Below, piece by piece: positions 38,608 to 53,551 of a stretch of 64,000 nucleotides of DNA; the stretch's first letter is position 1, and every line of letters starts with the position of its first letter. The position numbers and the translations under genes were made by a program. This DNA is from Asticcacaulis sp. AND118 (GTDB taxonomy: Bacteria > Pseudomonadota > Alphaproteobacteria > Caulobacterales > Caulobacteraceae). The stretch lies in assembly GCF_020535245.1 (NCBI RefSeq), contig NZ_CP084911.1, positions 260,001 through 324,000 on the forward strand, in the 5' to 3' direction. The notes beneath the pieces were generated by a model. It had not been told where the DNA came from. It did not search any database and worked only from the letters and a program-made list of their open reading frames with translations.

Positions 38608-39006
38608 CTAGCGGAACAGGCCGCCCAGCAACTTGCCGATGCCGTCCTGACCGAGCAGGTTCGGCGCGGCTTCGGCGATGGCTTGCGGCAGTTGACCGCC
38701 TTGCGTCAACTGATCGACCACGCCCGGCAGGACATCGCCCAATTGGGCGGGATCGATTCCCAGTGACCCGGCCAGTTGATTGACCATGTCCGGTCCCAAC
38801 GCCGATTGCAGTTGCTCGAACGAAACCGGCAGGTTGGCGCCGTTCGACACCCACGACTGCACGACTTCAGCCAGACCGCCCTGTTGCAATTGGCCCAGCA
38901 CATCGCCGACCAGCCCCTGCCCGCCGAGTTGTTCCGCCAAACCGGCAATGTCCAGATTGCCCAGATCGAGCTTGCCGCCCAGGGCGCCCAGAATATCGTT
39001 CAACAT
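38608..39006 (-). CDS. YidB-like (DUF937) protein
   Basis: The 132-residue protein is Gly-, Leu- and Gln-rich with repeated LGGQGLVGDVLGQLQQGGLAEVVQSW-type helices, matching the YidB/DUF937 family. VSFEQLQSALGPDMVNQLAGSLGI is the family core. No biochemical role is established. It has no signal peptide or membrane helix. Confidence 0.85.
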   Translation of the reverse strand: MLNDILGALGGKLDLGNLDIAGLAEQLGGQGLVGDVLGQLQQGGLAEVVQSWVSNGANLPVSFEQLQSALGPDMVNQLAGSLGIDPAQLGDVLPGVVDQLTQGGQLPQAIAEAAPNLLGQDGIGKLLGGLFR

Positions 39007-39130
39007 GACCCGCTCCGTTCGTTGATATCATCGCCATCTAGCGCGGCGAATCGGCGGGAGTCGAGTCAAGAGCAGCGGTCACCGATACCCCGATAGGTGC
39101 GCAAACCTTTGCCTCACGCAGATGTTTACC

Positions 39131-40264
39131 TCAGCGCGGGCGCACCGGAATGTCCGTAATCACGTCGTAGAGCGCCTTGAGACACGCAATGCCCAGCGCC
39201 TGCGACCGCGACGGCGACCAAGCCTCGGTCGCGTCCGGGGCGTCGTCATGGTCCTTGAACGGCATTTCCAGCGTCATGGCGATGGCGCCATAGCGTTCGG
39301 CCACCGCATTGGTCGAAATGGCCAGATTGGCCTGACCGCGCGCATCGACGTCATAGCCGAATGTCGTCTGGAAATCGGGCGTGCGCGCCAGAAGGGCGTT
39401 CAGATAGCGGCGATAGAGGGCGTCGCGTTCGGGCGTCCAAGACGGCACGCCCTCGAACCCGGCCATGAAGACGTGCGGAATGGCCTCGTCGCCATGCACA
39501 TCGATGGCGAAATCGACGCCGGTAGCGTCCATGGCGTTGCGGATGGCCAGCACTTCCGGGCTCTTGTCCGCCGAGGGCTCGGCCCACTGACGGTTCAGAT
39601 CGGTGCCCGCGGCATTGGTGCGCAGATGGCCGCGCGCGCTGCCGTCCGGATTGACATTGAGCACGACTTGAAAAGTCGCTGCCGCCCGCAGCGCCACGGC
39701 TTCCGGCGCGTCACCGCAGAGCCAGGGAATGGCCCCCTCCATCCACCATTCGGCCATGGTTTCCCCCGGATGCTGGCGGGCATAGAGCCATACCGCGCGC
39801 GGGCCCTCGCCCAGCGTGAACAGGTCGAGGTCGCGTCCGTCGAGCGTTTGGCCCAAAACCCGGTGACCGACGCCCGGCAGGGTTTTCACGCGTTCGACCA
39901 GCGCGCGATGCCGGTCACTGTCATAGGGCGCGAAATAGGCCACCCACAGGCTGTCGGACACCGCTTTGTGACGGATGGTCAGCACCCCGTCGGCGTAATC
40001 GGTCTCGGCGAGCGTCCAATCGGCCTTGTCGGGGCTCACACGGGCCCTGTAGCCCGTCCAGCCGCCCGTATAGGCCGATCCCCCGGCATTGGTGAGACGC
40101 AGCTCCAGATCGGTCCCTGCGGCGCCGTCAACACGGAAATAGAACCACTGGTAATAGTGCGACTGATGATCCGCGCGGATGCTGAGGTCGAAACGCCCGA
40201 TGCCATAGTCCTGCACGACGTCGATATTGCCGCCGTCGAAGTCGGAATGGATGCTGATCGCCAT
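39131..40264 (-). CDS. M14 zinc carboxypeptidase, cytosolic-carboxypeptidase type
   Basis: Residues 1-110 form the beta-sandwich pro-like domain of CCP/Nna1 enzymes (SHYYQWFYFRV), and the catalytic domain follows. Zinc ligands are the His and Glu in RQHPGETMAEW and the His in DVHGDEAIPH; substrate-binding NVNPDGSARGHLRTNAAGTDLNR and the catalytic Glu in MTLEMPFKD are intact. Eukaryotic relatives trim poly-glutamate side chains; bacterial substrates are poorly known. There is no signal peptide. It is the last gene before the origin region. Confidence 0.92.
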   Translation of the reverse strand: MAISIHSDFDGGNIDVVQDYGIGRFDLSIRADHQSHYYQWFYFRVDGAAGTDLELRLTNAGGSAYTGGWTGYRARVSPDKADWTLAETDYADGVLTIRHKAVSDSLWVAYFAPYDSDRHRALVERVKTLPGVGHRVLGQTLDGRDLDLFTLGEGPRAVWLYARQHPGETMAEWWMEGAIPWLCGDAPEAVALRAAATFQVVLNVNPDGSARGHLRTNAAGTDLNRQWAEPSADKSPEVLAIRNAMDATGVDFAIDVHGDEAIPHVFMAGFEGVPSWTPERDALYRRYLNALLARTPDFQTTFGYDVDARGQANLAISTNAVAERYGAIAMTLEMPFKDHDDAPDATEAWSPSRSQALGIACLKALYDVITDIPVRPR

Positions 40265-40823
40265 GACGGCCTCCGGAAGAGTCTGAAAGCAAAGAAAGTT
40301 TCCATAGCGACCGAATCGGACGCCGTCACGTCATTTCACCGTGAAGCCGCACCGTGAAGCGATGTCACACTATCGGGGGATCAGTGACCCTCTGCCAATC
40401 CCGCAATCCCTTTGACTCCAAGCGATTCCGGGCGCAGTCACGCGGATTTGCGGCCAAAATCAGGTGTTTTGGGTCTCGATACAAGGCTCAACGGGAGGTT
40501 CGGGCGGCTTTTCGTTGGTCACCGGAGCCCCTCGTTTTCGGTGACCCTGCCCCGTTGTCTGTAATCCCGGAAATCCCGGTGACCGGTTTTAGGTGACCCT
40601 TGGGCGGTACTGTCTTAACCCCCTTTCCGTCGAAGTCCGCCTGAGCGACCCCTCAAAGGTCGCACAAGGCGGGCTCGGCACGATCGTTACCCCGCGTTCC
40701 TGAGCCCTGTTAAGAGAGTCTGTTAGTGAATCTAGTTAAATAGGTTAAGCGAAAAAAAAAGCCGAAATTCCCCTTTAAAATCAATAAGGGTACTATTTGT
40801 TAATCTCTGATCCCCCGTGGCTG

Positions 40824-41148
40824 CGTCACTGATCCCCCGCAGGGGCGGTCTTCGTTCCCCCGTGCAACGGGTCACCCTTCCCCCGATGATCGCATAGAGA
40901 AAAAGGAAGTATTTTCCACAGCTTGCCGACAGCTTTTTAACCATGATCCGGGCGAAAATGCGGTCACTAATCCCCCGAAAGCCGTCTTTTGAGGGCAAAA
41001 CCGCCGGAAAAGACCATCCGGTCACTGTTCCCCCGACTCACCTGCAGCGAATCGGTCACCGATCCCCCGTCAAGCTGGTCTTCAATCCCCCGAGAGTTTG
41101 GTCACTGTTCCCCCGACGAATCAGGGCAAAAAAGTCACCGATCCCCCG
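40824..41148 (+). repeat. main iteron array
   Basis: Nine direct near-identical 16-mers, consensus GGTCAC(T/C)(G/A)(A/T)TCCCCCG, in three blocks (40824-40885, 40962-40977, 41020-41148). Two variants (40847 and 41077) have GGTCTTC in place of GGTCACT. Spacing of 22-23 bases within blocks places RepA on one face of the helix. Confidence 0.9.
40937..40944 (+). promoter_or_regulatory. CtrA-like half site in the origin
   Basis: TTAACCAT matches the short CtrA recognition form described for Caulobacter. It lies between iteron blocks beside the DnaA-like box. A single 8-mer could occur by chance. Confidence 0.3.
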
Positions 41149-41158
41149 ATACAAAAGC

Positions 41159-42088
41159 CTAGAACCGTTTGTTCATAAGGCCGTCGATTTCCAGAGCCCG
41201 CTGGTCTTCGGCAGACTGACGCTCCAGCGATTTCAACGCGTCGCGCACCCTCACCCGCTCTTCCATATCGCGCTTGATGAAGTGCACGGCGGGAGACCCG
41301 TCATTGGTCTTGGTCAGGGTCATTTCGTATTCAGGCAGGGCGTTCTTGGCCACGATACGCTTGAGCAGATAGGTGAACTGCTTCAGCGGGCTGTCCGAGC
41401 CGGTTTTTTCGTGCAGGATCGAGATGCGGCAGGTCCAGCCGCTCTCCTGATCGCCGGCGTGCTTGCGCGCCACACGGTACAGGGCGCGTTCCATGCCGCC
41501 GGTGAGCAGGAAATAGTCCTGATGCATGGTCAGGAGCGAGCGTTCGGTGACGATCCCCTGATAAACCCAGTCGGATAAGGTGATGGAAATCCCGCGCGGG
41601 GCCTCGGTTTCCGGGTCGACCTCCAACTGAAAGGCGTCGATCCAGCCGAATTGCGCCTTGTCCTTGCGTTTCGGCGCGCGCAGTGAGGTTTGAATGGTCG
41701 TCGATTCCAGCCTTTGCAGGGCCGCATTCAGTTCCTGATACGACTTGCCGCCCGTATCGCGCTTGATGGCGCGCAGCAGATCATAAGACGTGGTCTTAAG
41801 AGTCCGCGGCAAGTCATTGACTCCCTGCTCTTTCAGCCGGTTCAGCGCCGACGCCGCCCAGATCATGATGTCGGCGTCCCAGATGGTCGCGATGCCGAAT
41901 TCGGCATTCCCGGAAACCTTGACCCAGGTGTCGCCGTCAGGGCTGGTATATTCGATGGGTTTCAGGCGCTTACGCTTGGCCAGACTGAAAAACGGCCGTT
42001 CCATCAGCTCGCGCTGGTCCTTCAGCGACATGTCGCTGACCAGCGGGATGAACAGGTCGAACTGCGATTCAGCGGAACGGCGGGCCAT
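41159..42088 (-). CDS. repA: replication initiator protein RepA (RPA family)
   Basis: The 309-residue protein matches the RPA-type plasmid initiators of alphaproteobacteria: ESQFDLFIPLVSDMSLKDQRELMERPFFSLAKRKRL at the start, then two winged-helix-like domains (ADIMIWAASALNRLKEQG, and the region around FQLEVDPETEAPRGISITLSDW). It would bind the iterons next to its 3' end and open the origin. It is the last gene of parA-small gene-repA on the minus strand, three bases behind the 111-aa gene, so copy control and partition are co-expressed. An initiator plus iterons means this molecule replicates independently of a DnaA-only origin. Confidence 0.92.
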   Translation of the reverse strand: MARRSAESQFDLFIPLVSDMSLKDQRELMERPFFSLAKRKRLKPIEYTSPDGDTWVKVSGNAEFGIATIWDADIMIWAASALNRLKEQGVNDLPRTLKTTSYDLLRAIKRDTGGKSYQELNAALQRLESTTIQTSLRAPKRKDKAQFGWIDAFQLEVDPETEAPRGISITLSDWVYQGIVTERSLLTMHQDYFLLTGGMERALYRVARKHAGDQESGWTCRISILHEKTGSDSPLKQFTYLLKRIVAKNALPEYEMTLTKTNDGSPAVHFIKRDMEERVRVRDALKSLERQSAEDQRALEIDGLMNKRF

Positions 42089-42090
42089 GA

Positions 42091-42426
42091 TCAGAGCTTG
42101 CCCTCGGCCTTCAGCTTGGCTTCCAGCACCTCGACGGCCTGCTCGAACACCTGCCCCAGAACGAGGCCCTGCGCGTCGGCGACGGCGTAGAAACGGCGCA
42201 GCGCCTCGTCCGTCACCTTCAGATTGAGCTGACGGTTACGCCCGGTGCGATAGCGGCGTTGCAGGACGGGTTCGACGGGCGCCGGCGCGGCCACGGCCTC
42301 ACGGCTGGGGAAGCCCCTCGCCTCGGCCACGGCGCGCAGACCTTCCTTGTCCGGCTTAGGTTTCGGTTTCGCATCGAAGGCCGACAGGTCGAGATCGTCA
42401 TCAAAGATCGAAGCGCGTTCTGACAT
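42091..42426 (-). CDS. small partition/stability protein between parA and repA
   Basis: The first 50 residues are charged and disordered. The last 55 (RNRQLNLKVTDEALRRFYAVADAQGLVLGQVFEQAVEVL) have the strand-helix-helix pattern of a ribbon-helix-helix DNA-binding domain. Proteins with this layout lie between parA and rep in related alphaproteobacterial replicons and are called stability/partitioning determinants. It probably replaces ParB as the centromere-binding partner of ParA (inference). It starts four bases after the parA stop. ParB-type HTH and CTPase motifs are absent. Confidence 0.8.
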   Translation of the reverse strand: MSERASIFDDDLDLSAFDAKPKPKPDKEGLRAVAEARGFPSREAVAAPAPVEPVLQRRYRTGRNRQLNLKVTDEALRRFYAVADAQGLVLGQVFEQAVEVLEAKLKAEGKL

Positions 42427-42429
42427 GGA

Positions 42430-43119
42430 TTAAGCGACCTCCTGAGCCGGCGCGACGTCCGGATTTTTAAGCAAATCAATGGCTTCGGCCACAAAGGCGC
42501 GGGCATTGGCCACGGCCTTGTCGATATTGGCGACCTGCAACGGATCGAGCGTCTCCAGCGACCCGCCGAACGAGAACATGGCCTTGAAGGCCTCGCGCTC
42601 GTGCAACTGCGTGTCGAACAGGCGGATGCCGTGCGCCCGCAACTGTTCGTGGATGGCCGACAGCGTGCGCGGCTTGATGACCGGATTGGTGCGCGTCAGA
42701 AGCACGGCGTGCGGGATCGGGCGGCGCGACTGGCGCTCGGTATTCTTGATCAGGCTCAAGGCCTTGGCCGCCTGTTTGGCGTCGAGCTGCGACCCCTGCG
42801 TTGGCACAACCACCAGATCCGAAGCCCCGATGGCATAGGCTACCGTCAGCGACGCCGTACCTTCGCAGTCGACGACCACGAACGGCGCTTCGGCGGCCGC
42901 CTCTTCTATCTTGTCGAGGATGTTTTCCTGATTGGCATCCGACACGATGCGGATATTGGCTGGGCAACCGTTCAGCTGCGACCAGGCGAGGATCGGACGG
43001 TTGGGGTCGGCATCGATGATGATGACCTGCGTCTTGCGCGCCAGTTGCGTCGCCATCAGCGTCGCCGCCGTGGTCTTGCCCACCCCGCCCTTTGGGGAGA
43101 TGAAGGAAATGACCGGCAT
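42430..43119 (-). CDS. parA: ParA-family partition ATPase
   Basis: The deviant Walker A KGGVGKTT is at residues 10-17, with IIIDADPNRP and VVVDCEGTAS as the other nucleotide motifs. At 229 aa it is the short type Ib ParA that lacks an N-terminal DNA-binding domain, the class that works with small RHH partners rather than ParB. It would move the replicon over the nucleoid before division. It heads the par-rep operon. Confidence 0.93.
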   Translation of the reverse strand: MPVISFISPKGGVGKTTAATLMATQLARKTQVIIIDADPNRPILAWSQLNGCPANIRIVSDANQENILDKIEEAAAEAPFVVVDCEGTASLTVAYAIGASDLVVVPTQGSQLDAKQAAKALSLIKNTERQSRRPIPHAVLLTRTNPVIKPRTLSAIHEQLRAHGIRLFDTQLHEREAFKAMFSFGGSLETLDPLQVANIDKAVANARAFVAEAIDLLKNPDVAPAQEVA

Positions 43120-43555
43120 GTCGGGCTCCTTTCGGACGGCTTCCGGCTGGCTATCGGGTAGCTGTCAGCTAACGCGGCCGGCCTTTGCGCAAAGGTTAAT
43201 GGAGTGTTAATAGTTGTGAGTGCGCCGATTCTGACGCGGGGTCCAGCGGGAAGGCATCTGGAAGCTAGGGACAAGCTTGATGAAAGCCCGCCGATAGACA
43301 TCCGCTATCCCGCCGAAAGCCGCCAGACAGATGCCCGTTAGCTTCCTGTTAGCCATAATCTAGCTTCCGAATAGCTAACGGAAAGTTAATAGCTAACGGA
43401 AATCCAGCCGATAGCCTGTGAATAGCCGTCGTAAAGCTATCAGATAGTTGATTGGTATCTTTTGGGTATCTTTGGGTGGTGAATGTGCGACCGGGGATCC
43501 GTAAATGTATGATTTTACTTGGATAACATTCTGGTATCCATTGGGTATCCAAATG
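43120..43555. other. upstream par region with GTTAGC/GCTAAC repeats, candidate centromere
   Basis: AATAGCTAACGGAAA occurs twice, at 43370-43384 and 43388-43402 (18-base step). GTTAGC or GCTAAC cores also occur at 43168, 43337 and 43348, and several GATAGC/GCTATC and GTTAAT words lie between 43150 and 43450. Repeats just upstream of a type Ib parA are where the centromere and operator usually lie. No gene is seen here. Confidence 0.55.
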
Positions 43556-43594
43556 AAGAGCCTCCGGCGGGCAGGGGCGCAGCCCCTGCACCCG
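43556..43594 (+). repeat. 39-bp direct repeat, left copy
   Basis: The 39-bp unit begins AAGAGCCTCCGG and contains the palindrome GCAGGGGC-N3-GCCCCTGC. It matches 44358-44396 at 37 of 39 positions and lies 18 bases before the 248-aa gene. Confidence 0.85.
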
Positions 43595-43612
43595 ATAACG
43601 TTTTGAGGGGAA

Positions 43613-44359
43613 ATGGATAGGGCAATCCGTCAGGCGCTTTGGCGATTTGTCAGGTGCGATACGACAACCACAGACTTTGAAGCCTGGGTCTATGCCTATG
43701 AGGCAACCTTGCTCACCGAATTGGGCGTCGATCTGCATCTGGCGCTACTCGAAATGAACTATGCCGATCGCAATCAGGTCGAGCGCATGCGCGAGCGCCT
43801 TGAAGGCCTACTGCGCCCTGCCCTCGCCTGCGAGTGTGAGGCGGTGGCGGATGAGGACGTCATTCCGATGGGAATGGAAAGGCGCGATGAGCGCTTTTTC
43901 GCCACGGTGGACGAAGCCGCAAGGCATGGCGGTAAAGCGTGGTGGCTTTGGCTGGGCAAGTGCAAGGCTTGCGGCGACCACTGGCTGATCGCTCAGGAAG
44001 AGCGAATATACGATGATTACTTTGTCGATCGCCTCAGTGACGAGGATGCGGCGCACATCCTTGCTGATAAACAATGGCCGGCAAAATATCTGACCTATGA
44101 AGACGTTCTGCGGACGGGCAGGGTGCGCAGCAAGCCCTGCCGGTTCGTCGATAGAATGGCAAACTCACTTGTCTGGACGGTGCAGGAACTCAGGCGCGAT
44201 CGCCCGGAGATAGACGAGAGGGAGATGGCTGATCTTCTGGGGATTGACGCGCTGCACGCCAAAGAATTACTCAAAAAATCAAACACGTTACGTGAGAGCT
44301 ATCTGGTAGCTATCATAAATAAATGGCTTGTTCGATTGAGTGAGAAGCTCAGGAATTAA
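43613..44359 (+). CDS. immunity-like protein with two Cys pairs, flanked by repeats
   Basis: The 248-residue protein starts after GGGGAAATGG. Its N-terminus (FEAWVYAYEATLLTELGVDLHLALLEMNY) resembles, from memory, that of small immunity proteins of polymorphic toxin systems. C73/C75 and C117/C120 (CKACGDHW) may form a split zinc site, and IAQEERIYDDYFVDRL follows. Residues 175-225 are helical and may hold a helix-turn-helix (EREMADLLGIDALHAKELL). No toxin gene is adjacent. Matching 39-bp repeats sit on both sides, the right one overlapping the last two bases of the stop codon, which suggests insertion or shuffling as a cassette. Confidence 0.75.
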   Translation: MDRAIRQALWRFVRCDTTTTDFEAWVYAYEATLLTELGVDLHLALLEMNYADRNQVERMRERLEGLLRPALACECEAVADEDVIPMGMERRDERFFATVDEAARHGGKAWWLWLGKCKACGDHWLIAQEERIYDDYFVDRLSDEDAAHILADKQWPAKYLTYEDVLRTGRVRSKPCRFVDRMANSLVWTVQELRRDRPEIDEREMADLLGIDALHAKELLKKSNTLRESYLVAIINKWLVRLSEKLRN

Positions 44360-44396
44360 GAGCCTCCGGCGGGCAGGGGCACGGCCCCTGCACCCG
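44358..44396 (+). repeat. 39-bp direct repeat, right copy
   Basis: This is the right partner of 43556-43594, with two mismatches and the same internal palindrome. It begins inside the stop codon of the 248-aa gene. Confidence 0.85.
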
Positions 44397-44442
44397 CAGC
44401 GACCTACCCCCTTCACCCGCAGCGACCTACCCCCTTCACCCG
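44392..44442 (+). repeat. 23-bp tandem repeat (2.2 copies)
   Basis: The unit ACCCGCAGCGACCTACCCC plus CTTC is repeated exactly at 44392-44414 and 44415-44437, with five bases of a third copy. It starts inside the right 39-bp repeat. Confidence 0.85.
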
Positions 44443-44534
44443 GTCTCGACAAGCTCGACCACCCTCTCCCCGTGGGGGCGAGGGAAGATTGCGAATCTAT
44501 CCCCGCCGCTCAAACCGTTCGTATCCTTGGGCGC

Positions 44535-45308
44535 ATGACCCATTCGGAGCGCACAGAGGAGCAATTGACGCCAGAACAACGGCGCAAGCGGTTGCGCGCC
44601 TTCGCTGATCGTATGCTGATCGCTCTGGGCGAGGTCGATGATCCCGAAAACGGTGACGATGTCGTCAAGGGCGTCCGGACGGCTTTGATGATCGAGCGTC
44701 TCTATGCCCGCTGCGATGCGTCGGAAGCCGGGGCACACAAACGTGCTGCCGCTTCTATTGAAGATCAGGTGACGCTGCAGAAAAAACTCAAATGGTCGGG
44801 ATATTATTTCGACAAAGTTCCGAACGTACCGTTTGTGACACTGAAGCCGGATATGCTGGCCGGGATGCAATGGCCGCGTCCGGAGCCTGACCCTATGGCG
44901 GAACTCAGGGGCGAACTCAAGGCCGAAATTCAGACGCTGAAAACACCGGCAAAGCCGCAGCCTCAGCCCGTGTCTGAACCGACCAAAGCGCCGGAAACGG
45001 TTATCGAGCCCAAGCCCGCCGCGCCTTCAAACAAGCCCCAAGACACCCTCCTGACGCCGCAGCAAGCGGCTCTGCGCGAGCGAGTGCTGAACACCAAAGC
45101 CATCGAGAAACCCAGGGACGTCGCGTGGTTCGATCACGATTACGGTCTGATTCGCGATGAGGATGTCGAAGTGCTCCACGGGGATCGCCTGCCCTGGATG
45201 TATGAGGCGGGTTGCTCGCGTGAGATGATTTTGAAAACGCTCAAAGCCTATATGCGCGAAGACCTCAATACTCTGTGGCCCGACATCTTCCCGCTGGATA
45301 CGACCTAA
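44535..45308 (+). CDS. hypothetical protein with Pro-rich linker (257 aa)
   Basis: ATG 44535 is chosen because the reading frame upstream crosses the tandem repeats and has no protein-like character. Residues 1-85 are helical and charged. Residues 125-170 are a Pro/Lys/Thr linker (KPQPQPVSEPTKAPETVIEPKP). The C-terminal 75 contain WFDHDYGLIRDEDVEVLHGDRLPWMYEAG and a final helix. This resembles small chromosomal proteins of unknown role in Caulobacterales. There is no signal peptide. Confidence 0.7.
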   Translation: MTHSERTEEQLTPEQRRKRLRAFADRMLIALGEVDDPENGDDVVKGVRTALMIERLYARCDASEAGAHKRAAASIEDQVTLQKKLKWSGYYFDKVPNVPFVTLKPDMLAGMQWPRPEPDPMAELRGELKAEIQTLKTPAKPQPQPVSEPTKAPETVIEPKPAAPSNKPQDTLLTPQQAALRERVLNTKAIEKPRDVAWFDHDYGLIRDEDVEVLHGDRLPWMYEAGCSREMILKTLKAYMREDLNTLWPDIFPLDTT

Positions 45309-52891: not shown

Positions 52892-52942
52892 CTTTATCTC
52901 GATAGGGTCACCGAAACCCCGACGCAATCGGGGGAACGAAGA

Positions 52943-53551
52943 CTATTTCGCGGCCCTGGCCTTTTCCTCGTCGCTGAGGCGCTGGAACAGCAGGTCCACC
53001 ATCTCCTCGGCGTTTTCGTCGGTCGCGGTCGAGGCCTCGACGCCGCAGTAGCTCTGATCCGGCAGACGGCCCCAGACGACCAGCGGCGCGTAGTAGCGTG
53101 CGAGGTCGCTCAACGCTTCGTGCTGCTCCTGAGCCGCGGTGTCGGGCAGGACCAGCATGCCGTCAAAGCGCTGCGAACGGACGAGGTCTTTCAGCGCGCC
53201 CTGACGCTTGGCCGGGGTCTTGAGCACCAGAAGCTCGTAGCCGCGCTTGAAAACGGCCTGGGTGAGGGCGCCCATCAGGCTCAGCAGGTGCGGGTCGCGC
53301 AGCTTGCGCTCGCCGTCGTCGGGCAGGACCAGACCGATGGTGCGCGTGCGCTTGAGGCGCAGGTTACGCGCCGCCTGATTGACGACATAGCCATTTTCCT
53401 CGGCGATGGCCGTGATCTTGTCGCGCAAGGGCTTCGGGATCAGCGGACTTCCGGCCAGGGCCCGCGATACCGTGGATACCGAAACCCCGGCCATGCGGGC
53501 GATATCGGCCATCTTGAGCGGGGCGGTGGTCGAAAGAGTATCTGTGGTCAT
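52943..53551 (-). CDS. LacI-type regulator lacking the second half of its effector domain
   Basis: Residues 14-70 are a complete LacI helix-turn-helix and hinge (MADIARMAGVSVSTVSRALAGS, NQAARNLRLKRTRTIGLVLPD). The effector region follows only to about residue 165 (GMLVLPDTAAQEQHEALSDL, PLVVWGRL), then a charged tail of 35 residues (DENAEEMVDLLFQRLSDEEKARAAK) ends the protein at 202 aa against the usual 330-350. Downstream sequence goes straight into terminators, with no sign of a frameshifted remainder. It lies 39 bases behind kduD in the same orientation and probably controls that unit. Confidence 0.8.
   Translation of the reverse strand: MTTDTLSTTAPLKMADIARMAGVSVSTVSRALAGSPLIPKPLRDKITAIAEENGYVVNQAARNLRLKRTRTIGLVLPDDGERKLRDPHLLSLMGALTQAVFKRGYELLVLKTPAKRQGALKDLVRSQRFDGMLVLPDTAAQEQHEALSDLARYYAPLVVWGRLPDQSYCGVEASTATDENAEEMVDLLFQRLSDEEKARAAK

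Follow-up and report, generated by a model that had tools for sequence, protein, structure and literature searches.

The window analysed here is a stretch of 64,000 nucleotides of Asticcacaulis sp. AND118, C2:260001-324000, taken from a genome of 4.05 Mb in four contigs (C1, C2, C3 and C4, of 2,866,373, 999,145, 135,095 and 52,697 bases, respectively). It contains repA (41159-42088, minus strand), a gene coding for an initiator of the RPA family and, on the 3' side of this gene, a set of short repeats which we take for the iterons of a replication origin. The 309-amino-acid RepA was assigned to the family by its match to the complete Pfam profile PF10134 (E-value 7.4e-75; 251.9 bits against a cut-off of 27; profile positions 1-228 of 228), and it is 98% identical to the RepA of A. 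currens. In the predicted model, two winged-helix domains are present together with a C-terminal helix, and the fold matches domains 2-3 of RctB, as would suit the tandem winged-helix initiator of an iteron origin. When the sequence profile of RepA was compared with solved structures, no relative was found, the only hit (E 0.16) being unrelated. Among 25 genomes of the genus, a RepA match was obtained in 19 and none in 6; in 11 of them, the genome of the window included, RepA is at least 86% identical, and it is to these eleven that the conservation counts given below for the genus refer.

A first-pass annotation of the window had listed eleven copies of a 16-mer of the form GGTCAC...CCCCCG between 40374 and 41148, one of them inverted, and had placed them on the 3' side of repA. 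Both points were confirmed: ten copies lie on the plus strand, opposite to repA, and one on the minus strand. When up to 3 mismatches were allowed, 17 matches were found in the window against 4.9 expected, a number that was reached in none of 100 shuffles. On the whole of C2, 63 such matches were counted; the richest 775-bp window holds 11 of them and is located at this locus, the best one elsewhere holding 2. The direct copies are arranged in three blocks. Block A (40802-40885) comprises the copies at 40802 (3 mismatches), 40824 and 40870 (1 mismatch each) and 40847 (2 mismatches, a GGTCTTC variant), block B (40962-40977) consists of one perfect copy, and block C (41020-41148) contains perfect copies at 41020, 41054 and 41100, a second GGTCTTC variant at 41077 (2 mismatches) and a copy with 1 mismatch at 41133. 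The inverted copy (40374-40389) is also perfect. All four copies that adjoin the A/T-rich core described below are imperfect, and the perfect ones stand farther away, although block C also has its imperfect members. The start-to-start distances between direct copies are 22, 23, 23, 92, 58, 34, 23, 23 and 33 bp, so that the annotated phase of 22-23 bp holds for 5 of the 9. The locus thus possesses phased direct repeats beside an initiator gene in a number beyond chance, as is expected of an iteron origin. The motif GATC lies inside 5 of the 11 copies.

The longer spacings, pooled from six of the eleven related arrays (33, 34, 45, 58, 79, 90, 91, 92, 101 and 111 bp), lie close to multiples of 11.25 bp (R 0.85, equalled by 7 of 5000 random sets, which were scored on a coarser grid). 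Across species (40802-41148 and five relatives), the spacings look quantised at about 11.25 rather than 10.5 bp. This periodicity suggests that the iterons lie on one face of the helix; it is only a hint, since the related arrays are not independent.

Related genomes were searched for the 16-mer beside repA, as the first-pass annotation had proposed: in all eleven genomes, an array of 8-10 copies fills the interval that separates the core from the 3' end of repA. The slot at 40962 starts with GGTCAC in 11/11, one genome having lost a base of the C-run, and the slot at 40847 departs from GGTCAC in every genome. The GGTCTTC variants had been annotated as possible weaker sites for copy control. 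That they are weaker sites is supported in part, by the constant deviation at 40847 but not at 41077, where GGTCTT is found in 3 genomes, GGTCAC in 7 and no copy in 1; a part in copy control would be conjectural. Three genomes of the genus (G002, G019 and G022) carry two RepA types, one with GGTCAC and one with GGTGTG iterons, which fits compatible coexistence.

The most A/T-rich segment of the region (40710-40799, 67-70% A+T in 30-bp bins) adjoins block A, as the A/T-rich core of an iteron origin should adjoin its repeats. Four TAAC boxes spaced by 9, 13 and 13 bp (40709-40749), which read CTTAACCTATTTAACTAGATTCACTAACAGACTCTCTTAAC on the repA strand, form the core of the putative unwinding element. 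A 71-base query covering this core gave one match per genome in 8 of the 25 genomes of the genus. The TTAAC boxes were also considered as sites for CtrA, whose recognised form is TTAA-N7-TTAA; this candidate was rejected in a by-eye comparison, as the spacings of 9, 13 and 13 do not fit. A lesser A/T-rich patch (40890-40949, 63 and 53% A+T) surrounds the single strict DnaA box, TTTTCCACA (40912-40920, plus strand), another feature of iteron origins, of which TCCACAG is invariant in 11/11 genomes. On the far side of the core, from 40380 to 40709, every 30-bp bin contains 30-50% A+T. The first-pass annotation had seen the inverted iteron across an A/T-rich segment, with RepA sites on both sides of the unwinding region. 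Such bracketing is not supported: the inverted copy, although real, stands about 320 bp beyond the A/T-rich part and is found at that place in only 6 of the 11 genomes. Past the hairpin described below, between 40517 and 40598, four GGTCACC/GGTGACC heptamers were noticed that lack the CCCCCG half and show no clear conservation.

The region is also rich in GANTC, the methylation site of CcrM. Two sites are located in the core, at 40716-40720 (9/11 genomes) and at 40728-40732 (11/11), and two more, at 41035 and 41049 (41035-41053), adjoin two iterons and are both present in 11/11, so that three of the four origin sites are invariant. The GANTC density of the iteron region, 7 per 775 bp, compares with a C2 average of 1.22 and is reached by 0.12% of the C2 windows. 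A methylase domain of the RAMA type (CcrM-like) is encoded on C1.

About 35 bp past the end of the core lies a hairpin (40635-40674, minus strand) with a stem of up to 18 pairs, which has been kept by paired changes. In an alignment of eight sequences (three of the eleven genomes were dropped, their segment being identical to that of another), 84.7% of the cells pair, against 77.7% in shuffles, and 7 pairs are altered on both sides. The covariation score was 0.242 versus 0.128 for shuffled alignments (reached in 0/500), and it did not exceed 0.163 when the partners were slid; further pair types showed no excess over shuffles (433/500). In a scan of 22 loci, 5 of them without a core, the eight core-bearing Asticcacaulis loci have a strong hairpin whose start lies 58-75 bp from the base at which the core begins; hairpins with GGCC stems occur at 58-117 bp in Sphingomonads and Acetobacteraceae. 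Outside Asticcacaulis the hairpin is only suggestive, since the scan retained the best hairpin found in each stretch and had no shuffled control. No match to known RNA families was obtained in 39000-43700 up to an E-value of 1.

In order to place the locus within its replicon, the GC skew of C2 was examined. Over the whole contig, the cumulative minimum falls at C2:301269, i.e. window position 41269, within repA, the 3' end of which is 110 bp away. The maximum, counted from this origin, is located at C2:16786, which gives arms of about 715 and 284 kb; along the longer arm, three 25-kb bins before the last stretch are slightly negative. With the maximum so placed, either the arms are strongly unequal or the replicon was rearranged in the past. 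On two related replicons of 1,315,949 and 1,079,025 bp, the 200 kb surrounding repA were examined, and the minimum was found within repA (G007) and 132 bp outside it (G006), respectively. The genome has one RPA gene on each of its four contigs, and the only one on C2 is repA of this locus. The best family match of the genome is on the main chromosome (locus L107, G000:C1:1401288-1404977) and is perhaps an integrated plasmid replicator. No RepC, the initiator of repABC replicons, was found on C2, where RPA and RP-C were the families searched; the single RepC match of the genome, on C4, scored 25.6 bits against a cut-off of 24.4.

C2 also displays features of a chromid. It bears tRNA genes, among them a tRNA-Arg(ACG) which is the sole one with this anticodon among 5 similarity matches in the genome, the four weaker ones being Arg(TCT), Lys(TTT) and Arg(CCT) on C1 and Arg(CCG) on C2. 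C2 thus carries a core gene missing from the main chromosome, as far as a similarity search tells, C1 not having been scanned whole with ARAGORN. In addition, its replication and partition genes, repA and parA, are of the plasmid type. The G+C content of a chromid lies within about 1 point of that of the main chromosome; the value is 61.07% for C2 and 62.27% for C1, the latter figure being drawn from a 100-kb sample only.

The layout was examined in 59 RPA loci (58 distinct, L053 and L133 being one contig). In those with GGT-type iterons, the copies likewise stand 3' of repA on the opposite strand. GGTCAC iterons occur in Asticcacaulis and in four Caulobacter loci, which have iteron-like copies upstream of repA too; the iteron, which the first-pass annotation had treated as unfamiliar for an RPA-family initiator of the Caulobacterales, is therefore not unique. 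The form GGTGTG...CCCCCG is found in five Asticcacaulis loci and GGTGTG...CCCACG in 19 further loci, mostly from Sphingomonads. One GGTGGG copy was seen in each of L050 and L051 and none in L021 and L037, and the flank of L040 was too short. The eight Acetobacteraceae loci have no GGT-form iteron, and other repeats were seen in the two that were looked at. The TTAAC core is present beyond the iterons in 44 of the 59 loci; the 15 without it include five from Caulobacter/Caulobacterales and two whose flank is too short (L040 and L130). Within the 46-bp core, 33 of the 44 loci, which are related and not independent, have two GANTC sites, 3 have one and 8 have none, all eight being from Acetobacteraceae.

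The iteron type follows the RepA clade. On a RepA tree of 40 rows drawn from the 59 loci (15 GGTCAC, 13 GGTGTG and 12 other), each iteron type requires one change, and independent switches of specificity are unsupported. The two types are separated by 41 alignment columns, gap columns included, against 19 and 13 for two other splits. Because each type needs a single change on the tree, these columns may simply record shared history and do not pin down the recognition residues.

Taken together, these data led us to conclude that the locus is the RepA-iteron origin of a second chromosome (chromid) of about 1 Mb, with a probability of roughly 0.87. Bidirectional replication from an iteron-chromid origin is the most likely reading because the skew minimum of C2 lies beside the array and because minima are found at repA in two relatives. 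The first-pass annotation had proposed an iteron-type origin belonging to an RPA-family repA, a proposal that gains from the skew turn and from the array in 11/11 genomes; it had not recognised that a second chromosome probably starts its replication here. As to its kind, the locus falls into a known class, the iteron chromid origins.

The following scheme can be proposed. RepA would bind the direct repeats which follow the 3' end of the gene that encodes it. Since perfect copies occupy the middle and the repA-proximal part and the four copies adjoining the core are imperfect, RepA would be expected to load on the strong sites and then to extend through the weak copies towards the core. DnaA, bound at the 40912 box, would act with RepA to open the TTAAC core (40709-40749), where the helicase would be loaded. 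The hairpin past the core may help to start synthesis on the exposed strand, although to see in it a single-strand start signal is guesswork. Replication would then proceed both ways. Methylation by CcrM of the GANTC sites in the core and beside two iterons might gate initiation, once per cell cycle, and the distal RepA-like sites at 39077 and 52906, described below, may titrate or pair (handcuff) RepA.

Several observations weigh against this interpretation. RepA binding and replication at the locus are deduced from sequence, the skew locates the origin no more finely than a few hundred bases, and for the two relatives it covers 200 kb each. The array itself is not specific to second chromosomes, because the same type of origin is also present on smaller contigs (G022:C3, 570 kb, and G019:C4, 81 kb). 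RPA replicators are moreover common on plasmids (1174 plasmid records matched) and one RPA gene resides on C1, as could be expected if the locus were the remnant of a plasmid replicator that C2 carries or has taken up by integration, C2 itself replicating from another origin. We regard this as very improbable: the skew minimum of the whole contig and those of the 200-kb stretches of the two relatives lie at repA, which is the sole RPA gene of a contig where a search of the RPA and RP-C families detected no RepC, and the array, the core and the hairpin are conserved. It is just as improbable that the repeats serve mainly as a copy-control or incompatibility element, by handcuffing or titration, with opening taking place elsewhere. 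A slot kept degenerate in 11/11 genomes (40847) and the distal sites at 39077 and 52906 would agree with such a function; the array, however, adjoins the most A/T-rich segment and encloses the DnaA box, and a core of the same form stands beyond the iterons in 44 of 59 RPA loci.

The part attributed to CcrM is another matter. The GANTC sites could reflect the ordinary intergenic enrichment of alphaproteobacteria and have no part in initiation, to which we give an even chance. The eight Acetobacteraceae loci keep the TTAAC core without any GANTC, and 7 of the 8 genomes encode a methylase domain of the RAMA type; the idea that GANTC was lost where CcrM is absent was rejected on account of the same 7 genomes. 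The five Caulobacter/Caulobacterales loci without the TTAAC core have at most one GANTC within 900 bp of repA, and the methylase domain is present in all three of their genomes that were tested. According to the portion of the source consulted, loss of ccrM also left the control of chromosome copy number undisturbed in C. crescentus (PMC3973325). Against a mere enrichment stand the pair of sites inside the 46-bp core, seen in 33 of the 44 loci that have a core, the three origin sites invariant in 11/11 Asticcacaulis genomes and a density so rare on C2. An effect of CcrM on ori2 of Agrobacterium appears in the consulted part of PMC11514494. Gating by CcrM is plausible, the sites being favourably located and conserved, but weakly supported, since the Acetobacteraceae and Caulobacter loci lack the sites in spite of the methylase domain and the copy control of C. 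crescentus is independent of CcrM; we hold it somewhat less probable than its absence. With the same reserve, one may tentatively picture an alphaproteobacterial second chromosome which is run by an iteron initiator of the RctB fold and in which the paired GANTC sites of the core would make CcrM license initiation once per cell cycle. Such an arrangement, which falls short of even odds, would parallel the RctB/Dam system of Vibrio, built from a different plasmid family and in close kin of Caulobacter crescentus. If CcrM does gate the origin, the coupling of a second chromosome to the cell cycle by methylation could be tested directly in this genus.

The comparison with ori2/RctB of Vibrio rests on the predicted winged-helix core of RepA, which resembles domains II-III of RctB, a kinship that goes undetected when solved structures are searched with a sequence profile. 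Domains I and IV, which RctB has in addition, are not present in the 309-amino-acid RepA (PMC11711613, consulted in part, for the layout of RctB). The methylation site is GATC in Vibrio and GANTC here, where GATC is confined to 5 of the 11 iterons instead of occurring in each of them, and no crtS-like site was found on chromosome 1 among the iteron-like sites compared. With the iteron plasmids (F/RepE, pPS10 and RK2) the locus shares direct repeats phased by 22-23 bp, a DnaA box, an A/T-rich core and a winged-helix Rep. It differs from them by iterons that stand 3' of the rep gene and face it, and by a replicon of 1 Mb. No iteron precedes the par-rep operon, since no match with up to 3 mismatches was obtained between repA and 52.9 kb. 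The RPA loci of Sphingomonads, Caulobacter and Acetobacteraceae also resemble it: in the aligned loci of TTAAC or GGT layout RepA is 61-72% identical, the iterons lie 3' of repA, and the TTAAC core is present except in Caulobacter and some others. They depart from it by the GGTGTG...CCCACG iterons of the 19 mostly Sphingomonad loci and by the core without GANTC of the Acetobacteraceae, and most of them were found on contigs measuring 3-280 kb.

Like the repABC chromids, C2 has partition genes beside the initiator of a second replicon and an origin rich in GANTC (PMC6090056, in part); unlike them, it has no RepC, and its iterons are situated outside the initiator gene. As far as the available part of this 2018 review goes, chromids are either of repABC types, exclusive to alphaproteobacteria, or of iteron types, found in beta- and gammaproteobacteria. 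This division is not absolute, because non-repABC chromids, run by DnaA-like or RepB-I initiators, have been reported in Rhodobacterales (PMC9025767 and PMC3925955, both in part). These are, like C2, alphaproteobacterial and not driven by repABC; their initiators are different, and the word "iteron" does not occur in the available text of either paper. On the RPA-type Sphingobium plasmid pPDL2, the iterons are described upstream of repA (PMC3516476, in part). Further sources, equally partial, are PMC7858055 and PMC13342612. In the openly licensed literature, we found no account of the second-chromosome origin of Asticcacaulis, of a 3' iteron array for this RPA group or of a fold kinship between RPA and RctB. 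With this locus, a megabase replicon of the Caulobacterales is provided with an iteron origin, beside the best-studied alphaproteobacterial cell cycle, and for the RPA loci, which are common in Sphingomonads, both the anatomy of the origin and the code of the iterons become concrete.

Upstream of repA, two genes run in the same direction, in the order parA, a 111-amino-acid protein gene and repA. ParA (42430-43119, minus strand) is a small partition ATPase which matches VirC1, AAA_31 and others in Pfam, and ParA_partition of NCBIfam with an E-value of 5.5e-35, below the cut-off of that model. The 111-amino-acid protein (42091-42426, minus strand) has no Pfam or NCBIfam match and, by its position only, is a probable small centromere-binding protein. 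A cluster of TAGCTA/GATAGC repeats upstream of parA (43140-43445) is the probable centromere: AGCTA/TAGCT occurs 10 times in 43120-43560, where its frequency in the remainder of the window predicts 0.15, and similar repeats were seen in an alignment. Divergent from the par-rep operon, two open reading frames of 248 and 322 amino acids (43613-45308) have no Pfam or NCBIfam match.

Two distal iteron-like elements were identified in the window. The first (39077-39092, plus strand), 2.1 kb from repA, has GANTC beside it at 39048, 39058 and 39063, and a site is found at the same place and on the same strand in G004, G006, G007, L013 and L012. Just before it stands GAGTCGAGTC, which recurs with the site in G004, G006, G007 and L013, and the whole (39048-39092) is flanked by genes for a YidB-like protein and an M14 carboxypeptidase. 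The second is a convergent pair (starts 52906 and 52929; 52906-52944), 11.7 kb from repA, composed of GGTCACCGAAACCCCG and, on the minus strand, AGTCTTCGTTCCCCCG; as read from the frames, it separates the ends of convergent TonB-receptor-like and LacI-like genes. In G004 and G007 the pair is again present, at 10.0-11.2 kb from repA, G006 has a single arm of it, and none was found in G001, G013, G022 and G019; G001 and G013 have instead one inverted site at 2.4 kb. Such sites would suit titration or pairing rather than gene control.

Finally, a trigger on chromosome 1 was sought. Iteron matches differing at no more than 1 position were collected from 25 genomes, not every match outside the arrays having a locus, and 18 loci (two of them distal sites near repA) were compared by BLAST. 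In a second comparison, with up to 2 mismatches, 36 of 38 chromosome 1 sites were covered (8/8 in G000:C1, 14/14 in G006:C1 and 14/16 in G007:C1): six were common to two genomes, in loci 80-92% identical, and none was common to all three. A crtS-like trigger was set aside for want of a shared iteron-like site among those compared, bearing in mind that crtS need not resemble an iteron. The 18 loci yielded four alike pairs, L006/L007 within one genome and L141/L146, L143/L148 and L145/L155 each across two genomes. The first pair lies in a stretch of at least 2.4 kb which C1 (at 739 kb) and C2 (at 116 kb) have in common with 98% identity. L141 and L146 contain perfect 16-mers on G001:C1 and G006:C2, in loci 79% identical, and the frames of L141 read as conjugation-type genes.
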